Positions 13,432 to 59,762 of a stretch of 64,000 nt of DNA are shown piece after piece. The notes under the pieces are model-generated. The model did not search any database and was not told where the DNA came from. It saw only the letters and a list, made by a program, of their open reading frames with translations. The DNA lies in assembly GCF_026167665.1 (NCBI RefSeq), contig NZ_CP098740.1, forward strand, positions 5,766,001 through 5,830,000. Direction: 5' to 3'. The translations under genes were made by a program, and so were the position numbers. Every line of letters starts with the position of its first letter. Positions within the stretch are counted from its first letter, which is position 1. Source of the stretch: Streptomyces drozdowiczii (GTDB lineage: Bacteria > Actinomycetota > Actinomycetes > Streptomycetales > Streptomycetaceae).

Positions 13432-13566
13432 ATGCAGGATGTCCGCGACCGATTCGTGCCGCGCGGTGCGCCCGCTCGTTCCACCGGACGAGCACCGCGT
13501 GCCGTGTCCGGGCGTCCCGGGCGAAGGGCCGAAGGAGCACTGACGATGGGCGAGGGGAACGCATGA
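13432..13566 (+). other. Possible upstream ORF(s) before bluB-cobT
   Basis: Two overlapping small frames lie in this gap. A 44-codon ORF (13432-13566) ends MGEGNA and its TGA overlaps the bluB-cobT ATG as ATGA; its last six codons also have their own ATG (13546) with GAAGGAG about 8 nt upstream. A second frame, 13439-13543 (34 codons), has strongly G/C-ending codons. Either could be a translation-coupling leader; neither resembles a known family. No cobalamin riboswitch core is visible in 13232-13562. Confidence 0.25.
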
Positions 13567-16500
13567 GTGACACCGGCCGGATCCCGGGCGAGGGACTGCC
13601 GGAGAACACGGGCACGGTGGAGCAGCCGGGCGTCCCCGCGCCCGACTCCTACACCTACCTCGAACCCTCCGCGCACACCCCCGAGGACGACGACCTCCTC
13701 CTGATGCCGAGCGCCCAGGGCGCCTGGGGCGAACCCCAGCCGACGGCTCAGCCTGCGGACCCCTACGCCGACCCCGCCGCGCAGGGCGCCTACCAGCCGC
13801 ACTTCCAGCCCCAGCCCGCCGACCCGGCCCACGCCCAGGGCCCCGTCCAGCTCCAGGAGCAGGCCCCCGCGTACGCCATGCACCAGGCCGCCCCCGCGCC
13901 GCTGCCCGAGACCGGCCCCGGCGCGCACGAGTCCGGAGGCCGCGACTCCGGCTCCGTCGACCTCGGCGCCGTCCGCATCCCCGCCGCCGCGCAGACCCCC
14001 GTACGCCGCCCGCTGCACCGCGGCCCGGCCTCGCCCGAGCCGTCCTACGGCGGTACGTCGGGGGCCGGCGTCGTCCGCTCCCTGGCCGACCGCGGCCCGG
14101 CCGGCGCGCCCCCCGCCCGCCACGCGGGCCCGGCGACGGCCGAACCCGAGTACTTCGACCCCCAGCCGGCGGACCAGCCCCTCCCGGGCCCCCAGCTCGG
14201 CGAGATCCCGCCGCAGACCGCCCACCAGTGGACGCCGGAGGCGCCGGTTGCCGAGCAGCCGGTCGCGGAGCCCGTGGCGGCCCCGGCCGAGGTCGCGGCA
14301 CCGGATCCCGTCGCCGTGGCGGAGCCCGAGACGGCTCCGGTCGCCGAGGTGGCCGCACCGGCACCGGTCGCGGAGCCCGTGCCGGCCGCCGAGCCGGAGC
14401 CGGTGGCCGTGGCGGAGCCCGTACCGGCCCCCGAGCCACAGCTCGCACCGGCAGCCGAGGCGCCCGCCGAGCCGCAGGCCGAGTCAGCCGCCGAGCCGCA
14501 GCCGGAACCCGCTCCGGCCGCCGCGCCGCAGTTCGTCGCGGTCGCGGAGCCCGTCCCGGCCGCCGAGCCGGAGCCGGTGGCCGTGGCGGACCCCGTACAG
14601 GCCCCTGAGCCGCAGCCCGCACCGGCCGCCGAGCCGGAGCCGGTGGCCGTGGCGGAGCCCGTTGCGGCCCCCGAGCCGCAGCTGGTCCCGGCTGCCGAGC
14701 CGGAGCCCGTCGCGGTGGCGGAGCCCGTAACGGCCCCCGAGGCGCAGCCGGTCCCGGCTGCCGCGCCGGAGCCGGTGGCCGTGGCGGAGCCCGTACAGGC
14801 CCCCAGGCGCAGCCCGCACCGGCTCCCGAGCCGCAGCCCGCACCGGCACCCGAGCCGCAGCCCGAGGCCGTGGCCGAGCCCGCACCGGCCCCCGAGCCGG
14901 AAGCCGCCCCCGCGCCGGAGGCCGTTGCCGAACAGCCGATACAGCCGGAGGCACTCGCTCCCGTCTCCGAGCCCGAGCCCGGCCCCGAGGTCATCGAGAC
15001 CCCGGACCTGAGCGACGAGGCGGAGCCCGCAACGGCCGAGGCCCCCGAACTGGCGCCCACGGCGCCCCCCGCACCCGGCTACGACGACGCCGAGCGCGAA
15101 GCGGTCCTGCGGGTCATGCGGGAGCGCCGCGACATCCGCAACGGCTTCCGCAGCGACCCCATCCCGCACGAGGTGCTGCTGCGCGTCCTGGAGGCCGCGC
15201 ACACGGCGCCCAGCGTGGGCCACTCGCAGCCGTGGGACTTCGTGGTCATCCGGTCCGCCGAGACGCGCCGCTCGATGCACGAGCTGGCGCAGCAGCAGCG
15301 GGAGGCGTACGCCAAGTCCCTGCCGAAGGCACGGGCGAAGCAGTTCAAGGAACTGAAGATCGAGGCGATCCTCGACACCCCGGTCAACATCGTCGTGACC
15401 GCCGACCCGACGCGCGGCGGCCGCCACACGCTCGGCCGGCACACACAGCCGCAGATGGCCCCGTACTCGTCGGCGCTCGCCGTCGAGAATCTCTGGCTGG
15501 CGGCGCGCGCCGAGGGCCTGGGCGTCGGCTGGGTCAGCTTCTTCGACGAGCGCGAGATGGTGCGCGCGCTGGGCCTGCCGGAGCACCTGGAGATCGTGGC
15601 GTACCTCTGCGTGGGGTACGTGGACGAGTTCCCCGAGGACCCGGAGCTGATGCAGGCGGGCTGGTCGAAGCGGCGTCCGCTGTCCTGGGTCGTCCACGAG
15701 GAGACGTACGGCCGCCGCGCCCTGCCCGGCGAGGCGCCGCACGACCTGCTCCAGGAGACGATCTCCAACATCCGCCCGCTGGACGCCAAGGCGCTCGGCG
15801 AGGCGTGGGAGCGCCAGAAGCGGATGACCAAGCCGGCCGGTGCGCTCGGCATGCTGGAGATCATCTCGGCGCAGCTGGCCGGGCTCTCCCGGATGTGCCC
15901 GCCGCCGATCCCGGAGCCGGCGGCCGTCGCGGTGTTCGCGGGCGACCACGGGGTGCACGCGCAGGGTGTCACGGCGTGGCCCCAGGAGGTCACCGGCCAG
16001 ATGATCGCCAACATGCTCGGCGGCGGCGCGGTGTGCAACGCCTTCGCGTCCCAGGTCGGCGCCGAGGTGTGCGTGGTCGACGTGGGCGCGGTCGCGGAAC
16101 TGCCCCCGATGCCGGGCCTGCTGCCCCGCAAGGTACGGGCGGGCACGGCGGACTTCACCACGGGCCCGGCGCTTACCCGCGAGGAGGTCCACGCGGCGAT
16201 CGAGGTCGGCATCGAGACCGCCCGCGACCTGGTGGCGGCGGGCAACAAGGGCCTGCTGACCGGCGAGATGGGCATCGCGAACACGACGGCGTCGGCCGCC
16301 CTGATCTGCGTGTACACGGGGATGGACCCGGCCGAGATCACGGGCCGGGGCACCGGGATCAACGACGAGATGCACGCCCGCAAGATCGACGTGGTGCGGC
16401 GCGCCCTGGAACTCCACCAGCCCGACCCGGCGGACCCGATCGGCGTCCTGGCGGCCGTCGGCGGCCTGGAGCACGCGGCGATGGCCGGCTTCCTGCTGGG

Positions 16501-16795
16501 CGGCGCTTCGCTCCGTACGCCGGTCATCCTGGACGGCGTGAGCGCGGGCGCGGCAGCCCTGGTGGCCCGGGCGATCGCCCCGGAGGCCCTGGCCGCGTGC
16601 ATCGCCGGCCACCGCAGCGCGGAGCCGGGCCATGTGGCCGCGCTCAACAAGCTGGGCCTGCGCCCGCTGGTCGACCTGGACCTGCGCCTCGGCGAGGGCA
16701 CGGGCGCGTTGCTCGCCCTTCCGATCGTGCAGAGCGCTGCGCGCGCGATGCACGAGGTGGCGACGTTCGACTCGGCGGGCGTCACGGAGAAGTAG
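13563..16795 (+). CDS. cobT: BluB-CobT fusion with long N-terminal repeat region; frameshifted as sequenced
   Basis: After repair the protein has about 1077 residues. The first ~500 are low-complexity, rich in Ala, Pro, Glu and Val. Then comes a BluB-like flavin-dependent 5,6-dimethylbenzimidazole synthase domain (RRDIRNGFRSDPIP, SVGHSQPWDFVV, GVGWVSFFD), then CobT, nicotinate-nucleotide-dimethylbenzimidazole phosphoribosyltransferase (GDHGVHAQGVTAWP, GEMGIANTTASA, EHAAMAGFLLGG). The fusion would make the lower ligand and activate it in one polypeptide. The frame breaks at the C5 run 14800-14804; one added C restores it. Without repair, the downstream part could begin only at internal starts such as GTG 14870. 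The ATG at 13563 follows GAGGGG. Confidence 0.85.
14225..14935 (+). repeat. Imperfect coding repeats in the CobT N-terminal extension
   Basis: Units encoding variations of AEPEPVAVAEPVQAPEPQPAP recur roughly every 60-66 nt, at least six times. Neighbouring copies share 15-20 nt blocks such as GAGCCGGTGGCCGTGGCGGA. The region also contains the C-run frameshift at 14800-14804. Such arrays expand and contract easily. Confidence 0.75.
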
Positions 16796-16807
16796 CGCGG
16801 CACGTTG

Positions 16808-16945
16808 CGGGGGCCCTGCCCCCGTACCCCCGCTCCTCAATCGCCGCAGGGGCTTGATTTGGCGCGGCCACTCTCAGCCCCACCGGCGTTCGAGGCGCGG
16901 GGTCCGGGGCGGCGCCCCGGTTTCGGGAAGGGGCGGGGAGGGGGC
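16808..16945. repeat. Streptomyces REP-like intergenic repeat with nested hairpins
   Basis: Contains GGGGGC/GCCCCC near 16810-16823, an imperfect 18-nt inverted repeat (16837-16854 with 16876-16893, TCAATCGCCG...AGCCCC type) and CCGGGGC/GCCCCGG (16904-16910 with 16914-16920). This arrangement matches a dispersed intergenic element familiar from many Streptomyces genomes. It probably also terminates cobT transcription. Confidence 0.6.
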
Positions 16946-17059
16946 AAGGCCCGCCGCAGGCGCACCCCTCCCACCCCGTATCGTGAACACCACCCACCTC
17001 GCCGCTCCATCGCCGCAGCGGCCCGCGCTTCCGCACCGCCCCGAGGAGCCCGCACCACC

Positions 17060-18298
17060 ATGGCCGAGCACGCCGATCGCCCCGCCTACCCCGTCGGACT
17101 GCGCCTCAACGGGCGCCGCGTAGTCGTCGTCGGCGGCGGCCAAGTCGCGCAGCGCCGCCTCCCCGCCCTCATCGCGGCCGGCGCCGACGTCACCCTCGTG
17201 TCGCCGTCCGCCACCCCCTCCGTCGAGGCGATGGCGGACGCCGGCGAGATCCGCTGGGAGCGCCGCAGGTACGCCGAAGGCGACCTCACCGACACCTGGT
17301 ACGCGCTCATCGCGACCGACGACGACGCCGCCAACGAGGCCGCGTCCGCCGAGGCCGAACGCACCCGCACCTGGTGCGTCCGCAGCGACGACGCCGAGGC
17401 GGCCACCGCCTGGACGCCCGCCACCGGCCGCAGCGAGGGCGTCACCGTCGCCGTGCTCACCGCCGGCGCCCACGGCCGCGACCCGCGCCACTCCGCCGCC
17501 GTCCGCGACGCGATCGTGGAGGGCCTGCGCGACGGCAGCATCGCCGCCCCGCACCACCGCACCCGGACCGCCGGCGTCGCCCTGGTCGGCGGCGGCCCCG
17601 GCGACCCGGACCTCATCACCGTCCGGGGCCGCCGCCTCCTCGCCGAGGCGGACGTCGTCATCGCCGACCGCCTCGGCCCCCGCGACCTCCTGGACGAGCT
17701 CCCGCCGCACGTCGAGGTCATCGACGCCGCGAAGATCCCGTACGGCCGCTACATGGCCCAGGAGGCCATCAACAACGCGCTGATCGAGCACGCCAAGGCA
17801 GGCAAGGCGGTCGTCCGGCTCAAGGGCGGCGACCCGTTCGTCTTCGGCCGGGGCATGGAGGAGGCCCAGGCGCTCGCCGCCGAGGGCATCCCGTGCACCG
17901 TCGTGCCCGGCATCTCCAGCTCCATCTCGGTCCCCGGCGCGGCCGGCATCCCCGTCACCCACCGGGGCGTCGCCCACGAGTTCACCGTGGTCAGCGGGCA
18001 CGTCGCCCCCGACGACGCACGCTCCCTCGTCGACTGGGCCGCCCTCGCCAAGCTGCGCGGCACCCTGGTGCTCCTGATGGCCGTCGACAAGATCGGCGCC
18101 ATCGCCCGTACGCTCGTGGAGCACGGCCGCGCGCCCGAGACCCCGGTCGCCCTCGTCCAGGAGGGCACCACGGCCGCCCAGCGCCGCGTCGACGCGACCC
18201 TCGCGACGGTGGCCGAGCGGGTGGCCGCCGAGGACGTCCGCCCGCCCGCCGTCATCGTCATCGGCGCCGTCGTGGAGGTCGGCGTCAACCATGGCTGA
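17060..18298 (+). CDS. cobA: Uroporphyrinogen-III C-methyltransferase / siroheme synthase-like (CysG-type)
   Basis: A 412-residue fusion. The N-terminal part (residues about 10-160) is a Rossmann domain like Met8/CysG precorrin-2 dehydrogenase (VVVVGGGQVAQRR). The C-terminal part (about 170-405) is S-adenosylmethionine:uroporphyrinogen-III methyltransferase with GGGPGDPDLIT and the signature RLKGGDPFVFGRG. It makes precorrin-2 (and possibly sirohydrochlorin), the branch point to B12 and siroheme. The ATG has GAGGAG about 12 nt upstream. It overlaps the RNA methyltransferase gene by 8 nt. No separate central CysG dimerisation/chelatase insert is obvious. Confidence 0.92.
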   Translation: MAEHADRPAYPVGLRLNGRRVVVVGGGQVAQRRLPALIAAGADVTLVSPSATPSVEAMADAGEIRWERRRYAEGDLTDTWYALIATDDDAANEAASAEAERTRTWCVRSDDAEAATAWTPATGRSEGVTVAVLTAGAHGRDPRHSAAVRDAIVEGLRDGSIAAPHHRTRTAGVALVGGGPGDPDLITVRGRRLLAEADVVIADRLGPRDLLDELPPHVEVIDAAKIPYGRYMAQEAINNALIEHAKAGKAVVRLKGGDPFVFGRGMEEAQALAAEGIPCTVVPGISSSISVPGAAGIPVTHRGVAHEFTVVSGHVAPDDARSLVDWAALAKLRGTLVLLMAVDKIGAIARTLVEHGRAPETPVALVQEGTTAAQRRVDATLATVAERVAAEDVRPPAVIVIGAVVEVGVNHG

Positions 18299-19109
18299 AG
18301 CCCTCACCGTCGACACCCCCGACGACCCCCGCCTCGCCGACTACGTCAGCCTCACCGACGTGGAACTCCGGCGCAGGAAGGAGCCCGCCGAGGGCCTCTT
18401 CATCGCCGAGGGCGAGAAGGTCATCCGCCGCGCCCGCCAGGCCGGGTACGAGATGCGCTCCATGCTGCTCTCGGCGAAGTGGGCCGACCGGATGCGGGAC
18501 GTCATCGAGGAGACCGACGCCCCCGTCTACACGGTCGCCCCGGACCTCGCAGAACGCGTCACCGGCTACCACGTCCACCGGGGCGCCCTCGCGTCCATGC
18601 AGCGCAAGCCCCTCCCGACCGCAGCCGAAGTCCTCCGCACGGCCCGCCGCGTGGCCGTCATGGAGGCCGTCAACGACCATACGAACATCGGCGCGATCTT
18701 CCGCAGCGCCGCCGCCCTCGGGATGGACGCCGTCCTGCTCTCGCCGGACTGCGCCGACCCGCTCTACCGGCGCTCCGTCAAGGTCTCGATGGGCGCGGTG
18801 TTCTCCGTGCCGTACGCCCGTCTCGACGCCTGGCCGCAGGGGCTGGAAGCCGTACGCGAGGCCGGGTTCACGGTGCTCGCGCTGACGCCCGCCGAGAAGG
18901 CCGTCAGCATCGAGGAGGCGGCGCCGCACCGGATGGACCGGGTCGCCCTGATGCTCGGCGCCGAGGGCGACGGCCTCTCCGCCCGGGCCCTCGCCGCCGC
19001 CGACCGGTGGGTGCGCATCCCGATGGCCCACGGAGTGGACTCGCTGAACGTCGGCGCGGCGGCCGCGGTCGCGTTCTACGCGGTGGCCACGGGTCGCCCC
19101 GAGAGCTGA
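18291..19109 (+). CDS. TrmH/SpoU-family RNA 2'-O-methyltransferase
   Basis: A 272-residue SPOUT methyltransferase that uses SAM to methylate ribose 2'-OH in tRNA or rRNA. An N-terminal substrate-binding domain (residues about 15-100) precedes the knot domain with motif 1 (HTNIGAIFRSAAALGMDAVL), motif 2 (LMLGAEGDGLS) and motif 3 (IPMAHGVDSLNVGAAAAVAF). The start overlaps the end of cobA by 8 nt, so they are co-transcribed. Its stop codon directly abuts the stop codon of the convergent kinase gene with no base between. The exact RNA target is not deducible. Confidence 0.9.
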   Translation: MAEALTVDTPDDPRLADYVSLTDVELRRRKEPAEGLFIAEGEKVIRRARQAGYEMRSMLLSAKWADRMRDVIEETDAPVYTVAPDLAERVTGYHVHRGALASMQRKPLPTAAEVLRTARRVAVMEAVNDHTNIGAIFRSAAALGMDAVLLSPDCADPLYRRSVKVSMGAVFSVPYARLDAWPQGLEAVREAGFTVLALTPAEKAVSIEEAAPHRMDRVALMLGAEGDGLSARALAAADRWVRIPMAHGVDSLNVGAAAAVAFYAVATGRPES

Positions 19110-20393
19110 TTACTGGCTCTGGCTCGGACCGTGCCCCAGGTCCACGCCCAGCCCCCGGGCCGGGCCCTGGCAGCCCTGCGCCGCCGCGATCCCCAGCGCC
19201 ACCAGCAGCGTCACCACCACGAAGACGACGAGCCGCTGCCGCAGCAGCTTCGGGTTGGCCGGGCGCCGTCCCGTCGAGGTGGTCCGGGTGCCGGGCCGGG
19301 TGCCCGGCCTGCCGTTCGTCCCGTTGGTGCCCTGCGGACGCCTCGCCGGCCGCGCCGTCCCGCGCGGCGGCTGCTGCTGCGCCGGCCGGCCGCCCCCGGT
19401 GCGGGCGGGGGCGGAACGCGCCGCCGACGGCCGGTTCTGCGGGCGCGACCCGGGCGCCGGACCGGCCGCCCGGCGGGTCTGCTGCTCGGTGTACGGGCCG
19501 TCCAGCCGGCCGGTCGGGCGGTCCGCCTCCTGGGCCGAACGCTGGACGGGCGGCCGGCTCTCGTGCAGCCCCTGCGCCTCGCGCGCCGCGATCTCCTTCA
19601 GCCGCATCGACAGCTGGAGCGTGCTCGGCCGCTCCTCCGGGTCCTTCGCCAGGCAGGCGCTCACCAGCGGCGCCAGCGCGTCGTGCACATCGAAGAGCTG
19701 GGGCTCCTCGTGCACCACGCGATACAGCATCACCTCGGAACTGCCGTGCCCGAAGGGCGAGTCGGCCATCGCCGCATACGCCAGCGTCGCCCCGAGCGAG
19801 AACACGTCCGTCGCCGGCGTCACCGCCGCCCCGCGCACCTGCTCGGGCGCGAGGAAGCCGGGCGAGCCCACCGCCGTACCGACGTGCGTCAGCGTGGACG
19901 CGCCCGTCGACCAGGCGATTCCGAAGTCGATGATCCGGGGGCCCTTGGGGGAGAGGAGGATGTTCGAAGGCTTCAGGTCCCGGTGGACCACCCCGGCCTC
20001 GTGCACCGCGACCAGGCCCTCGGAGAGCGCCGCCCCGATCGAGGCCACCTCCGCGGCCGACAGCGGGCCCTCCTCGGCCACCTTGTCGTGCAGCGAGGGC
20101 CCCGGAACGTACTGCGTGGCGAACCAGGGGCGGTCCGCCTCCAGATCGGCGGCGACCAGCCGGGCCGTACACCCGCCGCGGATCCGCCGGGCCGCGGACA
20201 CCTCGCGCGCGAACCGCGAACGGAACTCCTGATCCTCCGCCAGGTCCGGGCGGATCACCTTCAGCGCGACGCGCTGGCCCCGCCGGTCCGAACCCAGGTA
20301 GACGACACCCATCCCGCCGGCCCCGAGCCGCCGGTGCAGCCTGAACGAGCCGACGACACGCGGGTCCTCGCGCCGGAGCCGCATCATCGCCAT
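19110..20393 (-). CDS. Membrane-anchored Ser/Thr protein kinase (PknB-like)
   Basis: A 427-residue Hanks-type kinase. Residues about 15-275 are the kinase domain: glycine loop LGAGGMGVVY, lysine in VALKVIRPD, catalytic HRDLKPSN and DFG in RIIDFGIAW. Residues about 280-380 are a disordered linker rich in Arg, Pro, Gln and Gly. One membrane helix near residue 392 (LVVFVVVTLLVALGIAAAQG) leaves a short outer tail without PASTA domains, so no extracellular ligand domain is seen. The ATG at 20393 is followed by two more Met codons. It stands alone on the minus strand. Confidence 0.9.
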   Translation of the reverse strand: MAMMRLRREDPRVVGSFRLHRRLGAGGMGVVYLGSDRRGQRVALKVIRPDLAEDQEFRSRFAREVSAARRIRGGCTARLVAADLEADRPWFATQYVPGPSLHDKVAEEGPLSAAEVASIGAALSEGLVAVHEAGVVHRDLKPSNILLSPKGPRIIDFGIAWSTGASTLTHVGTAVGSPGFLAPEQVRGAAVTPATDVFSLGATLAYAAMADSPFGHGSSEVMLYRVVHEEPQLFDVHDALAPLVSACLAKDPEERPSTLQLSMRLKEIAAREAQGLHESRPPVQRSAQEADRPTGRLDGPYTEQQTRRAAGPAPGSRPQNRPSAARSAPARTGGGRPAQQQPPRGTARPARRPQGTNGTNGRPGTRPGTRTTSTGRRPANPKLLRQRLVVFVVVTLLVALGIAAAQGCQGPARGLGVDLGHGPSQSQ

Positions 20394-20598
20394 GTCTGCC
20401 CATCCCCGCTGCCTGGTACGCCTGACGAGGCACAGCTTACGTACCCGCCGCCCGGGGCGCTCAGAGGCCGCGCCCTCAACGGGGATCCGATTGTCAGTGG
20501 CGGGTGGGAGACTTGAGGAGTGGTCAGGGAGCCGCGGATCCAGGCGCCCCGGCCCGTGCGAGATCTCAAAGGTCCGTCGCAGAAGGGGGATTGGATCA

Positions 20599-20859
20599 AT
20601 GAAGGGCGATCGAGTCGAGATAGTCGTGGACGCCGGGGACAGCACCCGGACCTACGAGGTGGTGGCCTCCCGGGCAGGCCGCCGGGTGGAGACCGCGGTC
20701 CGCCGGGGCGTGGTCGAAGTGAGTGAAGTCACCCGGAACGGGTCCGTGGTGCGCACGGCCCGCTTCATGGCGACCAGGGTCCTCGCCCTGGTCGAACAGC
20801 CGGTCCCCAGGGAGGACAGCTCCGAGCGTCCCCTCCGGGAAGACCCCAAGCCCGCGTAG
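20599..20859 (+). CDS. Conserved hypothetical protein, 86 residues
   Basis: An 86-residue acidic/basic mixed protein beginning MKGDRVEIVVDAGDSTRTYEV, with a beta-rich first half (EVVASRAGRRVETAVRRGVV) and no membrane segment. No function is known to me; close relatives are common in Streptomyces next to the kinase gene. The ATG has AGAAGGGGG about 8 nt upstream. It is divergent from the kinase gene, and the 205-nt gap between them must hold both promoters. Confidence 0.7.
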   Translation: MKGDRVEIVVDAGDSTRTYEVVASRAGRRVETAVRRGVVEVSEVTRNGSVVRTARFMATRVLALVEQPVPREDSSERPLREDPKPA

Positions 20860-21046
20860 TCCGGTCTCCACCCAGGGGAGTACGCCGACCGAGCACGGCT
20901 CATCCTCCGGGAGGCCCGGGATTCGGTACGCGGGCATGACGCCGCCCGCCCCCCCGGATCCCTAATGTTGAGTCCAAGCGGCGGGCGTCGCACTCGTCCC
21001 CCGAGGTCAAACGCCCGTCGCCCCACATCGGGTCAGGAGAGGAACC

Positions 21047-21238
21047 ATGGCTGACACGGCAGCACGGACGGTGGTCCGCACGCGGACACGCGACTCGTAC
21101 GCCGCGTCCGGCCGCCGCCACCCGCTGGTGGCGACCGTCATGGTCCTTCCCCTGGCGGCCCTGCTCGTCGTCGTCTTCGGCGGCTGGGAAGCAGTGGTCA
21201 CACAGGCGTCGTCCGTGGGCGTGATGCTGGGGCGCTGA
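21047..21238 (+). CDS. Small membrane protein, 63 residues
   Basis: A 63-residue protein with a basic N-terminus (RTVVRTRTRDSY), one long hydrophobic helix (residues about 27-46, VATVMVLPLAALLVVVFGGW) and a short tail. The start is firm: CAGGAGAGGAACC stands right before the ATG. No family recognised. It is monocistronic, 187 nt after the 86-residue gene and before a long hairpin. Confidence 0.7.
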   Translation: MADTAARTVVRTRTRDSYAASGRRHPLVATVMVLPLAALLVVVFGGWEAVVTQASSVGVMLGR

Positions 21239-21318
21239 GCGGCGCCCCGGGTCCGGAAGAGCGGTCCGGACCGGGACATCCGGCCAACAGCCCCGTGGGG
21301 ACGGGGGTGCGGCGGACG

Positions 21319-21364
21319 GCAGCGTTTGTCCGGTCAGCTGGGGAGCTGACCGGACATCGCGCTG
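21319..21364 (+). terminator. Long GC hairpin after the 63-residue membrane protein
   Basis: A perfect 13-bp inner stem (21327-21339 with 21344-21356, 4-nt loop GGGG) is extended by GGCAGCG/CGCTGCC outside (21319-21325 with 21358-21364). It is 80 nt after the small gene and 80 nt before the phosphotransferase, so it may be a terminator or an operator. Confidence 0.5.
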
Positions 21365-21445
21365 CCCGGACCCCGGCGCCTCCCCTCCGCGTACGCTCTG
21401 CCGGGGCGTGACCGCCACAGCCCGTCCGCGACACCGGGAGAGACC

Positions 21446-22402: not shown

Positions 22403-22470
22403 GGTGAACCGACCGTCGGCGGGCATGCATTCCGGCGACGGCGAACCAACGGCGAGGAGTGAGCCCGAAC

Positions 22471-22749: not shown

Positions 22750-22759
22750 CCGAGCACGA

Positions 22760-22793: not shown

Positions 22794-22799
22794 TGACAG

Positions 22800-22871: not shown

Positions 22872-22893
22872 AGGTGAACCCGCGTGTACTGCG

Positions 22894-28690: not shown

Positions 28691-28845
28691 ATGGTGGACA
28701 CCTCTCGGGGCGACGCCCCCGCACCCCCTGCCGAAGAGCCGCGCGGCTGCCTCTTCGCGCTTTCCCAGCCCCTCTGATGATCTTCCTCTCGGTCATCGGC
28801 ACCCTGCTGCTGATGGCCGCGTTGCACGATCTCTTCCTGCTGTGA
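28691..28845 (+). CDS. Tiny membrane protein, split into two overlapping ORFs (possible frameshift)
   Basis: ORF A (28691-28777) encodes 28 residues ending CLFALSQPL. ORF B (28777-28845) encodes 22 residues, MIFLSVIGTLLLMAALHDLF plus LL. They overlap as TGATG. Adding one base in CCCCTCTGATG joins them into a single 51-residue protein with one membrane helix, a natural-looking product. Either they are coupled micro-ORFs or one frameshifted gene. No Shine-Dalgarno is seen. Otherwise 28539-28849 holds only a hairpin (GAAGAG/CTCTTC near 28733-28756). Confidence 0.4.
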
Positions 28846-30901: not shown

Positions 30902-33386
30902 TCACCGCATCCGCCCCAGCGCCTCCTTCAGCCGCCGGGCGTCCCGCAGCCGCTTCTCGTACGTCGCCCCCACCGCCAGCAGCAGCAACCCGGCCAGCGC
31001 CGGCACCACCCACCGCGGCAGCGCCCCCGCCACCTGCACCACATACGGCGCCAGCTCGTGCAGCGCGTCCAGCGCCAGCACCGCACCGCCCAGCACCAGC
31101 AGCGCCTGGAGCCGCAGCCGCGCACCCGCCAGCGTGATCGCCAGGGCCGCCAGCCCCAGCAGCAGCGGGCGCGCCCAGTGCGGGTCCGTCCAGGCCGCGC
31201 CCAGCGACGGCACCAGCGTCACCGCGAGCCCCGCCCCGTACGCCGTCCACGAGGAGGCCGACGGATCGCGGCGCCGGCGCAGCACCCCTACCACCAGCGC
31301 CGGCACCGTCACCGGCAGGGTGTACGCCTCCGGGGCCGACACCCCCGACACCGCGAGCCGCACCCACGCCGCCGAGACGAACAGCGCCGTCGCGAGGTAC
31401 CCCGCGCACACCCGCCGCTCGGGGCGCAGCGCCGTCCCCGCCGCGAGCACCCCGCACAGCGCCAGCACCAGCGCCAGGAACCGCGCGTCGCCCGCCGCCA
31501 TGGCGACCGCCACCCCGCCCGCCGCCGCCCCGGTCACCTCGACCGGCACCGCCGCCGGGTGGCCCTTCAGCCGCGCCCCCGCCAGCGCCGTCGCCGCCGG
31601 GACCACGAGCACCGGCAGAGCCGCCTCGTGCGCCGCGAAGCCCAGCGAGGCCCCAGCGCGGCCATCGGCACCACCGCGCACACCACCGCCGCACAGGCCG
31701 CCGCCGACACCACCACGGGCGCGGCGCCCTCCTGCCGGTCCAGGGCCACCGCCAGCGCCACGAACACCACCACCAGCAGACCGAAAGCCGTGTACGTGGC
31801 CGCCTCCGTCGCCAGCGACAGCAGCGCCGCGCCCACCGCACCGGCCGCCCCGACCGCACCGGCCGTCACCGCCACACCCCGGGCGCCGGCCCGCAGCCCG
31901 GCCACCACCAGGCCGAACGCCGCCACGGCCAGGACCAGCTGCCCCGCCTGGGCCGCCGCGAAGGACAGGCCCAGCGCGGCCGGCAGCACCATCAGCCCCG
32001 CCCAGCCCAGCACCACCGCGGCCGACCCCACCGCACCCCGCCAGGCGGGCCCGGGCGCCGGAACCGACCCGGCCGCCCACCGGTGCAGCCCCTCCCACCA
32101 GCGGTACGCGGCACCGAGCGCCACGGCCACCAGCAGCAGCACCGCCGGGGCGGACGCCATCGCGTCCCACGGCAGATCCGTCGCACCCACCGCGCCCCGG
32201 GCCCCGCCGCGCGGCGCACCGGACCACACCGCGCCCAGCCGCGTCACCGGTCCCGCCGCGACCACCGCCACCGGCGCCAGCGACACCAGCACCGCGCCGG
32301 CTGCCACGACCGCCGACGCCCACCCGAGGCCCCGCGCCGCGGCGACGCCCAGCGGAGCCCGTACGGAGAACAGCAGCGCCCCGGCGCACAGCACGTACGC
32401 CAGGACCCGCCAGCCGTCCGGCACCCCGGCCGCGAACACCCCGCCCACCGCCGCCACGGCCGCGAGACCGGCCACCACACCGCCCGCCGCCGCGAACGCC
32501 ACCGGAGCCCGGCGCGCCCCCGCCAGGGCGAGCACCGCACCGGCCAGCAGCAGCGCCCCGGCACCACCGCACCGGCGGGCCCGGCCGCCGTCAGCGACTC
32601 CGCCAGCGCCAGCAGCAGCCCCGTCCCGCCCGTCGCGCACAGGGCGACGCACGCCATGACCCGTACCGACGTCCGTCCGACGGTCAGCGCCACCGCGCCG
32701 TCCAGCGCGGCCGTCACCAGCAGCGCCCCCGAGAACCACAGCGGCCCGCCGTCCGCCGCCCACACCCACAGCACCAGCGGCAGCTGCGCCGCGACGACCG
32801 CCAGCGGCAGCGGCAGCCGCAGCTTGCCCAGGAGCAGCCCGTAGGCCGTCCACAGCAGCGCGAGCACCGCCGCCGCCGTCCCCGCGTACGCGGCACCGTC
32901 CGTGCCCAGCAGTGCCGCCACGTACACCGCGTACGCGTCGAGCACCATCAGCAACGACGCCACCGCCACCAGCGCCTCCGCGGTCGCGGCCAGGCCCCGG
33001 CGCAGCAGCGCCACCGGAGCGGCCAGCGCCCCGGCCGTCACCGCGGTCAGCGCCGCGCTGCGCCCGCCGATGCCCAGGTCGCCCCAGCTGACCAGGGTGA
33101 ACGCCAGGGCGGCGACCGCGAGGAGCAGCCCGCCGAGGACCAGCAGTACGTTCTGCGCACTGCGCTTCGACGCCGGACGCGCCGGGGCGAACCCGCCGGG
33201 GCCCGGGCCCCAGGGAGCGGGCCCGGTGGCTTCCAGCGCCCGCAGCAGCCAGGCGCGTCGGGTCAGCAGCTGCGCCCGGCGGGCGTCCAGCCGGGCCAGT
33301 TCACTATCGAGGAGCGCCAATTCCTCGGCGGGCGGCGGCACATGTTCCATGGACGCGAGTGTGCTGCGCGCCACGCGGCCGAACAT
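30902..33386 (-). CDS. Large polytopic membrane protein, two frameshifts as sequenced
   Basis: With two one-base repairs the gene encodes about 828 residues: a coiled-coil-like N-terminus (EELALLDSELARLDARRAQLL) and about 20 or more Ala/Leu/Val-rich membrane helices, ending KRLRDARRLKEALGRMR. I do not recognise a function; related Streptomyces proteins are annotated only as membrane proteins. The breaks are at plus-strand C4 runs 32556-32559 and 31651-31654; adding one C to each makes a single open frame. The start may be ATG 33386 or ATG 33350; neither has a clear ribosome binding site. Two identical tRNA-Val genes flank it. Confidence 0.75.
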
Positions 33387-50410: not shown

Positions 50411-50436
50411 GCCGCGTCTGACACAGCCGTTGTGGA

Positions 50437-50468
50437 CGGGCCGGCGGGGGACACACCCCGTCGGCCCG
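50437..50468 (+). terminator. Terminator between yebC and ruvC
   Basis: A 13-bp stem with one G-U pair: 50437-50449 with 50456-50468, loop of 6 nt. It starts 27 nt after the yebC stop. Confidence 0.65.
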
Positions 50469-50541
50469 CCGCATTGTCGGTGCCGACCGATAGCCTGCTG
50501 AAACACTGGAACAGTTGACCGATCGGCAGGGAGGGGCGACC

Positions 50542-51740: not shown

Positions 51741-51817
51741 GCGGCGCGGGCCACCCTTCAGACCCGGCCGGGCACCTGCGGCGGGGCACCGAGACATCCG
51801 AGGCGGGACAGGACGAG

Positions 51818-52890
51818 ATGAACTGGGACGACACCGGAGCCGGCACGGACGACCGGCTGGACGAACGGCTGGTCGACGCCGGCGCGGACGGCGACGACAC
51901 CGCCGTCGAGGCGGCGCTGCGCCCCAAGGACCTGGACGAGTTCGTCGGCCAGGAGAAGGTCCGCGAACAGCTCGACCTGGTCCTCAAGGCCGCCCGCGCC
52001 CGCGGCGCCACCGCCGACCACGTCCTGCTCTCCGGCGCGCCGGGCCTCGGCAAGACCACCCTTTCGATGATCATCGCGGCGGAGATGAACGCCCCGATCC
52101 GGATCACCTCCGGCCCCGCCATCCAGCACGCCGGCGACCTCGCGGCGATCCTCTCCTCGCTCCAGGAGGGCGAGGTGCTGTTCCTGGACGAGATCCACCG
52201 CATGTCCCGGCCCGCCGAGGAGATGCTGTACATGGCCATGGAGGACTTCCGGGTCGACGTCATCGTCGGCAAGGGCCCCGGCGCCACCGCGATCCCGCTG
52301 GAACTGCCCCCTTCACGCTGGTCGGCGCCACCACCCGGGCCGGGCTGCTGCCGCCCCCGCTGCGCGACCGCTTCGGCTTCACCGGGCACATGGAGTTCTA
52401 CGCCCCCGCCGAACTGGAGCGGGTGATCCACCGCTCCGCCCGCCTGCTCGACGTCGAGCTGGACGCCGAGGGCGCCGCCGAGATCGCCGGACGCTCCCGG
52501 GGCACGCCCCGCATCGCCAACCGGCTGCTGCGCCGCGTACGGGACTACGCCCAGGTCAAGGCCGACGGCCGGATCGACCGGGAGATCGCGTCGGCGGCCC
52601 TCGGGGTGTACGAGGTGGACGCCCGGGGGCTGGACCGGCTGGACCGGGCGGTGCTCGGGGCGCTGCTCAAGCTGTTCGGCGGCGGTCCGGTGGGCCTGTC
52701 CACGCTCGCGGTCGCCGTGGGGGAGGAGCGCGAGACCGTCGAGGAGGTCGCCGAGCCCTTCCTCGTACGGGAAGGACTGCTGGCCAGGACGCCGCGCGGA
52801 CGGGTCGCCACCCCGGCCGCCTGGGCCCACCTGGGACTGGTCCCGCCGCAGCACGGCGTAACGGGACAACAGGGCCTGTTCGGGGCGTGA
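51818..52890 (+). CDS. ruvB: Holliday junction helicase RuvB; frameshifted as sequenced
   Basis: An AAA+ ATPase that drives branch migration with RuvA. Repair gives 357 residues, the normal length. Walker A is [11 protein letters not shown] and Walker B is LFLDEIHRM. The winged-helix C-terminal domain includes [16 protein letters not shown]. The frame breaks at the C5 run 52307-52311 just after IPLELPP; with one added C the sequence reads on to [20 protein letters not shown], the sensor region. Every downstream block is intact, so error in the sequence is likelier than decay. ATG 51818 follows a weak GGACGAG. Confidence 0.9.
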
Positions 52891-52937
52891 TGCGTCACAG
52901 GTTGACCGGAAGCGGAACCACGGTGCCATGCTGGGCG

Positions 52938-52967
52938 TTGTTCCATCGATGCGGACTCGCTTAGACT
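52938..52967 (+). promoter_or_regulatory. Promoter for yajC-secDF
   Basis: TTGTTC (52938-52943), an 18-nt spacer and TAGACT (52962-52967) match the vegetative sigma consensus; the transcript would have an 80-nt leader before yajC. Confidence 0.5.
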
Positions 52968-53055
52968 CCGCCGATGCCGCCCGTAACGGGTCGGTGTACC
53001 CACCCCCGTAGACCAGGCCGTTCTCCAGTGCGGTCGTGCGAAGGAAATTCGTCCC

Positions 53056-53517
53056 GTGAATCCCGTGACTCTCCTCCCCTTCATCGTGCTCATCGGGGCC
53101 ATGTTCCTGATGACGCGGTCCGCCAAGAAGAAGCAGGCGGCGGCTGCGGCCATGCGCAATGAAATGCAGCCCGGCACCGGCGTCCGCACGATCGGGGGCA
53201 TGTACGCCACCGTCAAGGAGCTTCACGACGACACGGTCCTCCTCGAGGTCGCCCCCGGCGTCCACGCCGTGTACGCGAAGAACGCGATCGGCGCCGTCCT
53301 GGACGACGCGGAGTACAACCGCATCGTCCACGGCGACGACCCCGAGCTCGACGTCGACGGCGCGGTCGTGCCCGACGACGCCTCCTCGCTCACCGAGGCC
53401 GACCACGCGAAGACCGACCTGGTCAAGAAGACCGACTCGGACGCCGACGCCGAAGCCGAGGCCGCGGACGACAAGAAGTCCGAGGGCAAGGCCGACGGCG
53501 AGGCCGACGCGAAGTAA
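53056..53517 (+). CDS. yajC: Preprotein translocase subunit YajC
   Basis: A 153-residue accessory subunit of the SecDF complex. The single N-terminal membrane helix (PVTLLPFIVLIGAMFLMT) is followed by the conserved KKKQAAAAAMRNEMQPGTGVR and a beta domain (VRTIGGMYATVKELHDDTV). The last 45 residues are an unusual acidic Asp/Ala/Lys-rich tail. The GTG has AAGGAA about 9 nt upstream. A hairpin and 147 nt separate it from secD. Confidence 0.93.
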   Translation: MNPVTLLPFIVLIGAMFLMTRSAKKKQAAAAAMRNEMQPGTGVRTIGGMYATVKELHDDTVLLEVAPGVHAVYAKNAIGAVLDDAEYNRIVHGDDPELDVDGAVVPDDASSLTEADHAKTDLVKKTDSDADAEAEAADDKKSEGKADGEADAK

Positions 53518-53528
53518 CACACCGCGAC

Positions 53529-53567
53529 CCGGGGATGCCGTGAGCCCACAGGCGTCCGGCACCCCGG
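53529..53567 (+). terminator. Hairpin after yajC
   Basis: CCGGGGATGCCG (53529-53540) pairs with CGGCACCCCGG (53557-53567) with a single bulged A, loop 16 nt. It may reduce read-through into secD. Confidence 0.5.
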
Positions 53568-53664
53568 TCCGTGCGTGCCTTCGCGGGGGCGGGTCCCCAC
53601 TAAACTTCGTGGCCGCTTGGGCGCATACCCGGCGCGGGGCGGTTGGACAGGGAGAAACGACAAG

Positions 53665-55407
53665 GTGGCAGCACCGAAGAAGGGCCGAGGCGCGGCCGGC
53701 GGTCAGGGGAACCCAGGGCGTTCCCTGGCGCTGATCCTGATCGCCATGATCGCCCTCACGGGCGGGATGTTCCTGGCCCACCAGCCGACGCCGCGACTCG
53801 GCATCGACCTGGCGGGCGGCACCTCCATCACGCTGGAGGCCAAGGCCGAGCCCGGCCAGGAAAAGGCCATCAACAAGACCAACATGGACACCGCGGTCGA
53901 CATCATGAACCGCCGTGTCAACGGTCTTGGTGTCAGCGAGGCCGAGGTCCAGACCCAGGGCAATCGCAACATCATCGTCAACATCCCCAAGGGCACGAAC
54001 TCCGCCGAGGCCAGGGAGCAGGTCGGCACCACCGCCAAGCTGTACTTCCGGCCGGTGCTGACCGTCGCCCAGGGCGCGCCCACCCCGGAGCCCAGCGCCT
54101 CGCCCTCCGGCAAGGCCAGCGGCTCGCCCTCGCCGAAGGCGTCCGCCTCCGAGAAGGCGACGGACGGCGACAAGGCCGGCAGCCCGTCCCCGTCCGCCAC
54201 CACCCAGGGCCGCGCGGTCACCGGCGCCCTGAAGGCCGACTCCTCGCCGTCGCCGAAGGCCAGCGCCACGCCGAAGGCCAGTGAGTCCGCGTCCGCCGAG
54301 GACCAGGCCGCCGCCGCCAAGCTCCAGAAGCAGTTCGAGTCGCTCGACTGCTCCAGCAAGGCGTCCCGCTCCAAGGCCGCCCAGGGCAGCAAGGCCGGCG
54401 ACACGGTCGTGGCGTGCAGCCAGGAAGGCGACGCCAAGTACGTCCTCGGCCCGGCCGAGGTGTCCGGCACCGAGGTCAAGACCGCCAAGGCCGCCTTCGA
54501 CCAGCAGCGCGGCATGTGGATCGTCCAGATGGAGTTCTCCGGCAAGGGCTCCAAGCAGTTCCAGGCGATCACCAAGAAGCTCTCCACGCAGCAGGAGCCG
54601 CAGAACCAGTTCGCCATCGCGCTGGACGGCGAGGTCGTCTCCGCCCCCCGCGTCAGCGAGCAGCTGAGCGGCAGCGCCGAGATCTCCGGCAGCTTCAACC
54701 AGCAGAGCGCCGAGGCCCTGGCCAACCAGCTCTCCTACGGTGCGCTCCCGCTCTCCTTCAAGGAGCAGAGCGTCACCACCGTCACCGCCGCGCTCGGCGG
54801 CGAGCAGCTGAAGGCCGGGCTCATCGCCGGCGCCATCGGCCTCGCCCTCGTGGTCGTCTACCTGGTGGCCTACTACCGCGGTCTGGCGTTCATCGCCCTG
54901 CTGAGCCTCCTGGTCTCCGGCATCCTCAGCTACACGATCATGTCGCTGCTCGGCCCGGCCATCGGCTTCGCGCTGAACCTGCCGGCCGTCTGCGGTGCCA
55001 TCGTGGCCATCGGTATCACCGCCGACTCCTTCATCGTGTACTTCGAACGCGTACGGGACGAGATCCGCGAGGGCCGTACGCTGCGTCCCGCCGTGGAACG
55101 CGGCTGGCCGCGCGCCCGGCGCACCATCCTGGTCTCCGACTTCGTGTCGTTCCTCGCCGCCGCCGTCCTCTTCGTGGTGACCGTCGGCAAGGTCCAGGGC
55201 TTCGCGTTCACGCTGGGTCTCACCACCCTGCTCGACGTCGTCGTGGTGTTCTTCTTCACCAAGCCGCTCATGACGATCATGGCGCGCAAGAAGTTCTTCG
55301 CCGGCGGCCACCCGTGGTCCGGTCTGGACCCGAAGCGCCTCGGTGCCAAGCCGCCGCTGCGCCGCTCCCGTCGTGTCAACGCCCCCACCGAACCGAAGGA
55401 GGCGTGA
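53665..55407 (+). CDS. secD: Protein translocase subunit SecD
   Basis: A 580-residue inner membrane protein that uses proton flow to help pull proteins out of SecYEG. The first helix (SLALILIAMIALTGGMFLA) is followed by RLGIDLAGGTSITLEAK, the periplasmic P1 domain, and a final bundle of about five helices with GIAITADSFIVYFERVRDE (conserved Asp and Arg). Between residues about 130 and 230 an insert rich in Ser, Pro, Ala and Lys (SPSPKASASEKATDG) lies in the external domain. The GTG start has GGGAG 12 nt upstream. The ATG of secF is 2 nt after its stop. Confidence 0.95.
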   Translation: MAAPKKGRGAAGGQGNPGRSLALILIAMIALTGGMFLAHQPTPRLGIDLAGGTSITLEAKAEPGQEKAINKTNMDTAVDIMNRRVNGLGVSEAEVQTQGNRNIIVNIPKGTNSAEAREQVGTTAKLYFRPVLTVAQGAPTPEPSASPSGKASGSPSPKASASEKATDGDKAGSPSPSATTQGRAVTGALKADSSPSPKASATPKASESASAEDQAAAAKLQKQFESLDCSSKASRSKAAQGSKAGDTVVACSQEGDAKYVLGPAEVSGTEVKTAKAAFDQQRGMWIVQMEFSGKGSKQFQAITKKLSTQQEPQNQFAIALDGEVVSAPRVSEQLSGSAEISGSFNQQSAEALANQLSYGALPLSFKEQSVTTVTAALGGEQLKAGLIAGAIGLALVVVYLVAYYRGLAFIALLSLLVSGILSYTIMSLLGPAIGFALNLPAVCGAIVAIGITADSFIVYFERVRDEIREGRTLRPAVERGWPRARRTILVSDFVSFLAAAVLFVVTVGKVQGFAFTLGLTTLLDVVVVFFFTKPLMTIMARKKFFAGGHPWSGLDPKRLGAKPPLRRSRRVNAPTEPKEA

Positions 55408-55408
55408 G

Positions 55409-56503
55409 ATGTCGCGACTCGGGAATCTCGGCGCCCGTCTCTACCGAGGCGAGGTCGGCTACGACTTCATCGGCAAGCGCAAGATCTGGTACGGCGTCTC
55501 CGTCCTGATCACCATCACGGCCATCCTCGGCCTGGTGGTCAGCGGCCTGAACATGGGCATCGAGTTCAAGGGCGGTGCCGTCTTCACCACCCCGAAGACG
55601 AGCGTGTCCGTCTCCGAGGCGGAGGACTTCGCCTCGGACGCCTCCGGCCACCAGGCCATCGTCCAGAAGCTCGGCAACGGCGGTCTGCGCATCCAGATCA
55701 CCGAGGTCGACACCCAGAAGTCCGACGAGATCCAGGACAAGCTCGCCAAGGACCTCGACGTCCCGCGCGAGAAGATCGCGGCCGACCTCGTCGGTCCCAG
55801 CTGGGGCGAGCAGATCGCCAACAAGGCGTGGACCGGCCTCGGCGTCTTCATGATCCTGGTCGTGATCTACCTGGCCATCGCCTTCGAGTGGCGGATGGCG
55901 GTCGCGGCCCTCGTCGCGCTGGTCCACGACATCACCATCACGGTGGGTGTCTACGCCCTGGTCGGCTTCGAGGTCACCCCGGGCACCGTGATCGGTCTGC
56001 TGACCATCCTCGGTTACTCCCTCTACGACACGGTCGTCGTCTTCGACAGCCTCAAGGAGGGCACGAAGGGGATCACCAAGCAGACCCGGTGGACGTACAG
56101 CGACGTCGCCAACCGCTCCATCAACAGCACGCTGGTCCGCTCGATCAACACCACCGTCGTCGCGCTGCTGCCGGTCGCCGGTCTGCTGTTCATCGGCGGC
56201 GGCGTCCTCGGCGCCGGCATGCTGAACGACATCTCGCTCGCCCTCTTCGTCGGCCTCGCGGCCGGTGCGTACTCCTCGATCTTCATCGCCACCCCGCTGG
56301 TCGCCGACCTCAAGGAACGCGAGCCGCAGATGAAGGCCCTGAAGAAGCGGGTCCTCGCCAAGCGCGCGGCCGCCGCCGCAAAGGGCGACACCGAGGAGGA
56401 CGACCGAGGCGAGGGCGACCACGAGGACGCCGCCCCCGCCGGTGCGGTCGTCGGTCAGCGTCGCGAGCCGAGGGGCCACGGCCGGACCCCGGGGAAGCGC
56501 TGA
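55409..56503 (+). CDS. secF: Protein translocase subunit SecF
   Basis: A 364-residue partner of SecD with six helices. Conserved GIEFKGGAVFTT after helix 1 and VHDITITVGVYALVGFEVTP and GYSLYDTVVVFDSLKEG in the membrane core are visible. The C-terminal 50 residues are a charged disordered tail. GAAGGAGG overlapping the end of secD serves as ribosome binding site. Its stop overlaps the apt start by 1 nt. Confidence 0.95.
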   Translation: MSRLGNLGARLYRGEVGYDFIGKRKIWYGVSVLITITAILGLVVSGLNMGIEFKGGAVFTTPKTSVSVSEAEDFASDASGHQAIVQKLGNGGLRIQITEVDTQKSDEIQDKLAKDLDVPREKIAADLVGPSWGEQIANKAWTGLGVFMILVVIYLAIAFEWRMAVAALVALVHDITITVGVYALVGFEVTPGTVIGLLTILGYSLYDTVVVFDSLKEGTKGITKQTRWTYSDVANRSINSTLVRSINTTVVALLPVAGLLFIGGGVLGAGMLNDISLALFVGLAAGAYSSIFIATPLVADLKEREPQMKALKKRVLAKRAAAAAKGDTEEDDRGEGDHEDAAPAGAVVGQRREPRGHGRTPGKR

Positions 56504-57054
56504 TGACCAGCACCACCGACAGCACCAGGGAGCTCCTGCTCAGCCGCATCCGTGACGTGGCGGACTACCCGAAGCCGGGCGTGATGTTCAAGGACATCAC
56601 CCCGCTGCTCGCGGACCCGGTCGCCTTCACGGCCCTCACCGACGCCCTCGCGGAGCTGTGCCTGCGGCACGGCGCCACGAAGATCGTCGGCCTGGAGGCC
56701 CGCGGCTTCATCCTGGCCGCGCCCGTCGCGGTCCGGGCCGGCCTCGGCTTCGTACCGGTCCGCAAGGCCGGGAAGCTGCCGGGTGCCACGCTCAGCCAGG
56801 CGTACGAGCTGGAGTACGGCACCGCCGAGATCGAGATCCACGCGGAGGACCTGTCCGCCGACGACCGGATCATGGTCATCGACGACGTGCTCGCCACCGG
56901 CGGCACCGCCGACGCCTCCCTGGAGCTCATCCGCCGGGCCGGTGCCCAGGTCGCCGGGGTCGCCGTCCTCATGGAGCTGGGCTTCCTGGCCGGCCGGGCC
57001 CGCCTGGCCGACAGCCTGCGCGGGGCCCCGCTGGAGGCCCTGATCACGGTCTGA
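56503..57054 (+). CDS. apt: Adenine phosphoribosyltransferase
   Basis: A 183-residue purine salvage enzyme that joins adenine to PRPP to give AMP. The PRPP-binding motif is [17 protein letters not shown] (about residues 124-140), preceded by the family stretch [15 protein letters not shown] and [14 protein letters not shown]. It overlaps secF by 1 nt. A perfect-stem terminator follows, then relA; the two are neighbours in many Actinobacteria and share purine/ppGpp metabolism. Confidence 0.96.
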
Positions 57055-57069
57055 GGACCGGCCGCACCG

Positions 57070-57111
57070 ACGCCGACGGGCACCCGGGAACAACCGGGTG
57101 CCCGTCGGCGT
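57070..57111 (+). terminator. Terminator after apt
   Basis: A perfect 18-bp stem ACGCCGACGGGCACCCGG with its complement (57070-57087 and 57094-57111), 6-nt loop. Confidence 0.85.
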
Positions 57112-57204
57112 TGTCAGGGCTCTCACGGTCCCCGGGGGAGGACCGGCCGCCGGGTCGTTACGATGGCCCTTCCGGGTGTGTCCGGATCCGCACGAGGAGC
57201 GCTC

Positions 57205-59762
57205 TTGCCAGACGAGGCCCAGCCAGTCGCCGCCCCGCAGCCCGACAAGCCCGAGGCGGGCTCCGCCGCGCCCGCGAAGCAGCAGGCCGCGGAGAAGCCG
57301 AAGCCTCCGGCGCCCCAGCCCGGCACGGGCCCGGCGTCCGCCGAGGCCAACGGCCCCGCGCCCGCTTCGCCCGCCCAGCCGGCCGCGCCCGCCCCGACCG
57401 CGCCCAAGCCCCCGCGAAGCCCGCCACCGGCTCCGCCTCGCCCACCGGCCCGGCGTCCCGCTCCGGCGGCTCCTCCAACCGCGTCCGGGCCCGCCTCGCC
57501 CGTCTCGGCGTCCAGCGCTCCAGCCCGTACAACCCGGTCCTCGAACCGCTGCTGCGGATCGTCCGCGGCAACGACGCCAAGACCGAGACCTCCACGCTGC
57601 GCCAGATCGAGCGGGCCTACCAGGTCGCCGAGCGCTGGCACCGCGGCCAGAAGCGCAAGAGCGGCGACCCGTACATCACACACCCGCTCGCCGTGACGAC
57701 GATCCTCGCCGAGCTGGGCATGGATCCGGCCACCCTGATGGCCGGGCTGCTGCACGACACGGTCGAGGACACCGAGTACGGCCTGGACACCCTGCGCCGC
57801 GACTTCGGCGACCAGGTCGCCCTGCTGGTCGACGGCGTCACCAAGCTGGACAAGGTCAAGTTCGGCGAGGCCGCCCAGGCCGAGACCGTGCGCAAGATGG
57901 TCGTCGCCATGGCCAAGGACCCGCGCGTCCTGGTCATCAAGCTCGCCGACCGGCTGCACAACATGCGCACCATGCGGTACCTCAAGCGGGAGAAGCAGGA
58001 GAAGAAGGCCCGCGAGACGCTGGAGATCTACGCCCCGCTCGCCCACCGCCTGGGCATGAACACCATCAAGTGGGAGCTGGAGGACCTCGCCTTCGCGATC
58101 CTCTACCCCAAGATGTACGACGAGATCGTGCGGCTGGTCGCCGAGCGCGCGCCCAAGCGCGACGAATACCTCGCCATCGTCACCGACGAGGTCCAGGCCG
58201 ACCTGCGCGCCGCCCGCATCAAGGCCACCGTCACCGGACGGCCCAAGCACTACTACAGCGTCTACCAGAAGATGATCGTGCGGGGCCGCGACTTCGCCGA
58301 GATCTACGACCTGGTGGGCATCCGCGTCCTCGTGGACACCGTCCGCGACTGCTACGCGGCGCTCGGCACCGTGCACGCGCGATGGAACCCGGTCCCCGGC
58401 CGGTTCAAGGACTACATCGCGATGCCCAAGTTCAACATGTACCAGTCGCTGCACACCACGGTGATCGGCCCCAGCGGCAAGCCCGTCGAGCTCCAGATCC
58501 GTACGTTCGACATGCACCGCCGCGCCGAATACGGCATCGCCGCCCACTGGAAGTACAAGCAGGAGGCCGTGGCGGGTGCCTCCAAGGTCCGCACCGACGT
58601 CCCCAAGAACACCGGGCGCGGCCAGGACACCGTCAACGACATGGCGTGGCTGCGCCAGCTCCTGGACTGGCAGAAGGAGACCGAGGACCCCAGCGAGTTC
58701 CTGGAGTCCCTGCGCTTCGACCTCTCGCGCAACGAGGTCTTCGTCTTCACGCCCAAGGGCGACGTCATAGCGCTCCCGGCCGGGGCCACCCCCGTCGACT
58801 TCGCGTACGCCGTCCACACCGAGGTCGGCCACCGCACGATAGGAGCACGGGTCAACGGCCGCCTCGTGCCGCTGGAGTCCACGCTCGACAACGGCGACCT
58901 GGTCGAGGTCTTCACCTCGAAGGCGGCCGGCGCCGGGCCCTCCCGCGACTGGCTCGGCTTCGTCAAGTCGCCCCGGGCCCGCAACAAGATCCGCGCCTGG
59001 TTCTCCAAGGAGCGCCGCGACGAGGCGATCGAGCAGGGCAAGGACGCCATCGCGCGGGCCATGCGCAAGCAGAACCTGCCGATCCAGCGCATCCTGACCG
59101 GCGACTCGCTGGTCACCCTGGCGCACGAGATGCGCTACCCCGACATCTCGTCCCTGTACGCCGCGATCGGCGAGGGCCACGTCGCCGCCGCCGGGGTCGT
59201 GCAGAAGCTGGTCCAGGCCCTCGGCGGCGAGGACGCGGCCAACGAGGACCTGGAGGAGAGCACCCCGCCCTCCCGCAGCCGCACCAAGCGCCGCTCCAAC
59301 GCCGACCCCGGGGTCGTCGTCAAGGGCGTCGAGGACGTCTGGGTCAAGCTCGCCCGCTGTTGCACGCCCGTGCCCGGCGACCCCATCATCGGCTTCGTCA
59401 CCCGGGGCAGCGGCGTCTCCGTGCACCGCGCGGACTGCGTGAACGTCGACTCGCTCTCCCAGCAGCCGGAACGGATCCTGGACGTCGAGTGGGCGCCCAC
59501 CCAGTCCTCGGTCTTCCTGGTCGCCATCCAGGTCGAGGCGCTGGACCGCTCCCGGCTCCTGTCGGACGTCACCCGGGTCCTCTCGGACCAGCACGTCAAC
59601 ATCCTGTCCGCGGCCGTGCAGACCTCCCGCGACCGGGTGGCCACCTCGCGCTTCACGTTCGAGATGGGCGACCCGAAGCACCTCGGCCACGTCCTGAAGG
59701 CGGTACGGGGCGTGGAGGGCGTCTACGACGTCTACCGGGTCACCTCGGCCCGCCGGCCGTAG
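57205..59762 (+). CDS. relA: Bifunctional (p)ppGpp synthetase/hydrolase RelA; frameshifted as sequenced
   Basis: A Rel protein of about 852 residues after repair. An N-terminal disordered Ala/Pro/Lys region of about 95 residues leads to the HD hydrolase domain ([23 protein letters not shown]), the synthetase domain ([13 protein letters not shown]), TGS ([19 protein letters not shown]) and a C-terminal ACT domain. The TTG start is chosen because GAGGAG lies 6 nt upstream and PDEAQPV follows, as in S. coelicolor. The frame breaks at the C5 run 57409-57413 in the disordered part; adding one C restores it. All catalytic domains are intact. Confidence 0.92.

Follow-up and report, generated by a model that had tools for sequence, protein, structure and literature searches.

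One-base losses at G/C homopolymers as the very probable source of broken reading frames in a Streptomyces drozdowiczii assembly

Long-read assemblies of Streptomyces and the window

PacBio-only assemblies of three Streptomyces strains showed 70, 295 and 335 differences from their Illumina-corrected versions, the vast majority being single-base homopolymer insertions made on correction (PMC6923854). The assembly of Streptomyces tuirus PHM034 (locus L123, JAGTPG010000002.1) was produced with PacBio RS, FALCON and Quiver, and its authors themselves blame sequencing errors (PMC10609185). In MinION assemblies, single-nucleotide polymorphisms and insertions or deletions (indels) are described in PMC6325685 as over-represented at homopolymers. 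The present analysis concerns five losses of reading frame in bluB-cobT, ruvB, relA and the gene of a large membrane protein, located within 64,000 nucleotides of the Streptomyces drozdowiczii genome (G000:C1:5766001-5830000). This whole stretch is referred to as the window; G000 designates the host genome, and other G and L codes designate the genomes and loci compared with it. The G000 assembly consists of one contig of 7,386,614 bases with a completeness of 99.64, and its named matches of top identity belong to Streptomyces (SID9727, 96% for the query protein).

We consider it very probable that the assembly, and not the organism, is without these bases, and that its consensus under-counts G/C homopolymers of at least four bases by one, as a long-read-only consensus does. 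Under this reading, the long-read consensus would drop one base in such runs, and each loss inside a gene would generate an apparent frameshift. The reads would presumably be PacBio continuous reads, or Nanopore reads without adequate short-read polishing, and we infer from the sequence comparisons that reads would show the base that the assembly lacks. The likeness to the PacBio-only Streptomyces of PMC6923854 is close, as single-base homopolymer losses frameshift genes there too, with counts in the hundreds for two of the three strains; the difference is that short reads were in hand in that study, whereas the platform is deduced here. S. tuirus PHM034 shows the one-sided signature seen here, with 20 runs shorter and 1 longer among 317 G/C runs of at least four (21.8 kb tested). 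The gene-fragmenting errors in Nanopore drafts described in the Kastor report are predominantly false deletions that tend to follow runs of four to five bases, which resembles the present case, but A/T runs were struck most in its Pseudomonas draft (PMC12007338), whereas A/T runs of at least four are too few here to judge.

Frame losses in the window

Frame changes were placed, blind to the sites reported by an earlier sequence-only reading, with a six-frame codon-usage model trained on long open reading frames (ORFs) of the window, and a filter dropped the junctions at which the upstream frame ends. Five jumps passed the filter, at 14789-14850 (14792-14866 in the later, longer scan), 31650-31721, 32557, 52306 and 57358, all of the one-base-lost type, and no further jump passed it anywhere in the window. 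These are the same five places at which that reading had seen the frame lost in runs of C; inspection of the sequence confirms the five runs, and for ruvB and the membrane protein the pieces on either side share one frame in relatives. Codon use stays normal on both sides of the breaks, with log-likelihood gains of 72-132 at four of the sites. Since positions no more than 4 nt away from G/C runs of at least four make up only 13.9% of the window, five breaks out of five beside such runs are not expected by chance. All five runs are C on the plus strand, as claimed; of the 571 runs in the span that are 4-5 bases long, 334 consist of C (0.585^5, about 0.07), and five of five being plus-strand C instead of G is only mildly unusual. 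Arithmetic on the ORF ends likewise agrees with the claim that total lengths become multiples of three, one base being added to 51818-52890 and to 13563-16795 and two to 30902-33386.

The ruvB gene (51818..52890, plus strand; ORF ends and Pfam) loses its frame at 52307..52311 on the plus strand, inside the P-loop domain as placed by Pfam and by the alignments of relatives, which are one base longer in 13 of 13 cases. The RuvB_N domain is split: positions 1-131 are read in the frame before the break, and positions 133-159 in the frame after it, together with the lid and C-terminal domains. The split copy is the best RuvB_N match in the genome, at 201 bits, followed by an unrelated place at 48.8 bits. 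In all eight relative loci the pieces lie in a single open frame, and their identity to the intact relatives is 92-100%. Ordinary pseudogene decay of single genes in the region would account for reading frames broken in the record, but such decay fits poorly with this identity and with the normal codon use around the breaks, and it is at odds with five window events that are all of one type and recur across the genome. We regard it as scarcely credible.

The gene of the large conserved membrane protein (30902..33386, minus strand) is read in three frames, as indicated by the codon model and by relatives. Its first loss is located at 31651..31654 on the minus strand, where relatives are one base longer in three of three loci (of which two have identical sequences), and its second at 32556..32559 on the minus strand, where the single aligned relative, L129, is one base longer (1/1). 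Because the gene lies on the minus strand, both runs consist of G in the coding sense, a part of the claim on C runs that had to be amended. When searched apart, the three pieces matched in order within a single ORF, 799-897 codons long, at all 13 relative loci. The comparison with relatives that had been proposed supports the frame losses in this gene and in ruvB. No Pfam family was found for the three pieces at E<=0.001, the only hit being a weak match to DUF2157 (E=0.0026). The minus-strand region 30902-33386 corresponds to a conserved Streptomyces protein of about 800-900 residues, and annotation from this record would yield three pieces.

Phase variation usually occurs at homopolymer runs, and either it or programmed frameshifting at the C/G runs might underlie the broken frames. 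The relatives, however, are in frame at ruvB in every one of the alignments and keep one open frame in all the loci counted above for ruvB and for the membrane protein, which argues against a conserved switch. In addition, the genes concerned are of unrelated kinds, among them ruvB, ispH and the genes of a protein kinase and a LuxR-type regulator, and have no strong flank in common. This explanation is thus hardly tenable.

The relA gene (57205..59762, plus strand) was taken from a TTG ahead of PDEAQP, the presumed start codon. Its frame is lost at 57409..57413 on the plus strand, in a low-complexity A/P-rich N-terminal leader, where relatives are one base longer. The model put the jump at 57358 within this leader, and the relatives put the loss at 57413. 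The site is one base longer in L050, L052 and L186, that is, in three of the three reaching it among the matches listed (4 of 6); at relA and at the membrane protein, the more distant alignments contain too many gaps to be read. The upstream piece matched relatives in just one of seven loci. The HD, RelA_SpoT, TGS and ACT domains all lie within 57414-59762, in one frame downstream of the break.

The bluB-cobT fusion gene (13563..16795, plus strand; ORF ends and Pfam) is broken at 14800..14804 on the plus strand, at a C5 run or an adjoining base, in an A/P/E-rich repeat linker that precedes BluB (nitroreductase) and CobT, as indicated by the codon model and Pfam. The Nitroreductase and DBI_PRT domains are both in frame downstream of the break. 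The flanks of the break share one ORF in four of seven relative loci; one further locus matched the downstream part alone, and two had no match. In G124, the net length difference at the gene is not a multiple of three, a match that leaves the position of the base unfixed. Attempts to settle the base by alignment were unsuccessful, the linker being repetitive and diverged, and no relative aligned there in the comparison that covered the other four sites. The repeat copies at 14426, 14600, 14666, 14732 and 14887 carry GAG after a C (or CT) run, which the broken copy at 14798 lacks; because the other copies have a different base right after the run, the lost base may sit beside it. The frame break as such is confirmed, and the placement of the missing base within the C run is less secure than had been claimed. 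The N-terminal extension of BluB-CobT (14200-15000) is itself a tandem repeat rich in A, P, E and V, whose copies follow one another every 66 bases (14600, 14666, 14732, 14798), and the BluB-CobT linkers of relatives align poorly with it.

In both relA and bluB-cobT, all recognised domains are found downstream of the break, so neither gene would be a clear knock-out even if the frameshifts were real. The appeal to essential-type genes, made from the sequence alone, is not needed, as a stronger case is provided by a gene outside the window.

Frame jumps and run lengths across the genome

The split ispH (LytB, PF02401) is located at G000:C1:2515986-2516818, where two adjacent pieces in different frames meet across a G run near 2516420 (L152, near 16420). 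The genome has no PF02401 matches other than these, and the relatives are one base longer at the site in two of two cases. IspH is indispensable where the mevalonate route is absent. No match to HMG-CoA reductase was found in the genome, a search that covered this one enzyme of the route. Since the sole ispH detected is interrupted and no HMG-CoA reductase came to light, the gene should be intact in the living cell. The split ispH is the strongest single point for error over mutation.

The same type of jump is found throughout the assembly. The first 464 kb of G000, window included, contain 20 candidates, and 864 kb contain 41, of which 39 are of the deletion type; this longer scan used a slightly longer minimum segment, and the relA site falls below its cut-off. 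Comparison of the first 20 candidates with the near genomes G124 and G155 and with others gave 12 clean one-base losses, 2 complex length differences and 6 candidates without an aligned relative. For the base and motif counts, three candidates were dropped by eye as gene starts: L200 6289 and L208 6013, which are the two insertion-type candidates, and L197 13398, of the deletion type; all three are retained in the count of 39 in 41. With relA added by hand, 39 sites result in 864 kb, two ambiguous sites among them being left out of the base count. Scaled up, this number would correspond to about 330 affected coding sites per genome, and the filter misses some. The jumps are denser in S. tuirus PHM034, with 4 candidates (3 of the loss type) in 21.8 kb versus the 41 in 864 kb seen here. 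The same filter gave 11 candidates for G005 (274 kb; 10 of the loss type), 5 for G012 (275 kb; 3), 1 for G006 (74 kb; 0), none for G004 (76 kb) and 1 for G009 (76 kb; 1).

A count of in-frame stop codons, tried as a means to separate decay from error, gave 39 in the G000 sample, 6 in G005 and 17 in G012, and is uninformative because the model merges neighbouring genes that share a frame.

Run lengths were compared directly in stretches of G000 aligned with G124 and SID9727 (111 kb, 94.4% identity), chosen around known jumps, wherever a run is shared by both sequences and its flanks are clean. Among 773 G/C runs of at least four, 16 were shorter in G000 and 1 was longer, and runs of 2-3 showed no such bias (4 shorter and 7 longer out of 14372). 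The losses by run length were 1 of 2700 at three bases, 4 of 610 at four, 9 of 145 at five and 3 of 17 at six, with no gains at lengths 4-6. A stricter filter left 15 losses versus 1 gain; six of the 15 are anchor sites, and 9 versus 1 remain without them, while the gaps at shorter runs are balanced (14 vs 12). The contracted runs of at least four comprise 5 C and 11 G on the plus strand, at both coding and non-coding sites, and C is thus not special, contrary to what the five window sites had suggested. A non-coding C run at 28772, one base shorter than in G124, is of the same type. The proposal of a systematic consensus error in homopolymers is well supported by the deletion-type jumps across the genome, the rise of losses with run length and the near absence of gains.

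The same data bear on real recent mutation in a strain with frequent homopolymer slippage, for instance one with NucS in place of MutS/MutL repair. Actinobacteria use NucS rather than MutS/MutL, and NucS reportedly does not mend indels. Losses confined to homopolymers and rising with their length would fit slippage, but slippage should also yield gains, and the 16 losses are accompanied by a single one. It would further have to strike hundreds of genes together, including the only ispH found, while leaving no other sign of decay, and the pattern is not seen in the control pairs of named assemblies but is present in a PacBio-only assembly. We regard this explanation as very improbable. The same small weight is given to a mutator burst, in which one-sided contraction of G/C homopolymers in a NucS-dependent actinobacterium would have frameshifted hundreds of genes in part of the population.

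Several results weigh against an assembly error at homopolymers. In a control of 79 named loci (1.57 Mb), the filter gave 26 candidates, 17 of them of the deletion type; jumps are roughly three times as frequent in G000 as in these loci, and much of the filter background would be gene starts by our provisional reading. When the window alone was compared with four named relatives, runs of at least four were shorter in 1 case and longer in 5 out of 282. Four of these five gains come from a single non-coding site, 50446, which enters anew with each relative, and most of the window break sites are absent from this count because their runs contain a substitution in the relatives. The bluB-cobT loss may, from its repeat copies, lie outside the run itself. 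Finally, the 37 sites with a clear longest run comprise 25 C and 12 G on the plus strand, and 28 of the 37 are C on the coding strand (28 vs 9; background C share 0.576), a mild excess.

A modification-linked motif was sought at the 32 sites whose longest run is unique. CCWGG-like ends were found at 3 (background 317/7476) and a following GAG at 5 (344/7476), neither being convincing given that nine flank features were tried, and no strong shared flanking motif was found around the runs of these 32 sites.

Control pairs of named assemblies, queried with L048, L049 and L050 and taken without regard to sequencing platform, gave 3 shorter, 2 longer and 7 other differences in 472 runs; no second assembly of the present strain turned up for comparison. 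The single-contig genome G005, sampled in the stretches L028-L031 and L211-L220, with its 11 candidates, has its own ruvB one base short near the same place and may share the problem; a thin run-length test at its locus L028 gave 2 shorter and 1 longer of 142. An inverted repeat at 61081-61103 of the window differs from G124 by a G run that is one base shorter and a facing C run that is one base longer; these paired hairpin changes are possibly real and not an error.

Consequences for the gene content of the strain

The finding is one of data quality and not of biological novelty, and a comparison of run lengths detects such assemblies without reads. As the assembly drops one letter in many C/G runs, gene calls made from it need checking. 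The effect on gene calls that had been proposed for the window is borne out, and its scope is wider, the whole genome being affected. Claims of gene absence, pseudogenes, truncated domains or split genes that are based on this assembly should first be checked against relatives. The genes at the five sites are almost certainly not truly broken in the bacterium.

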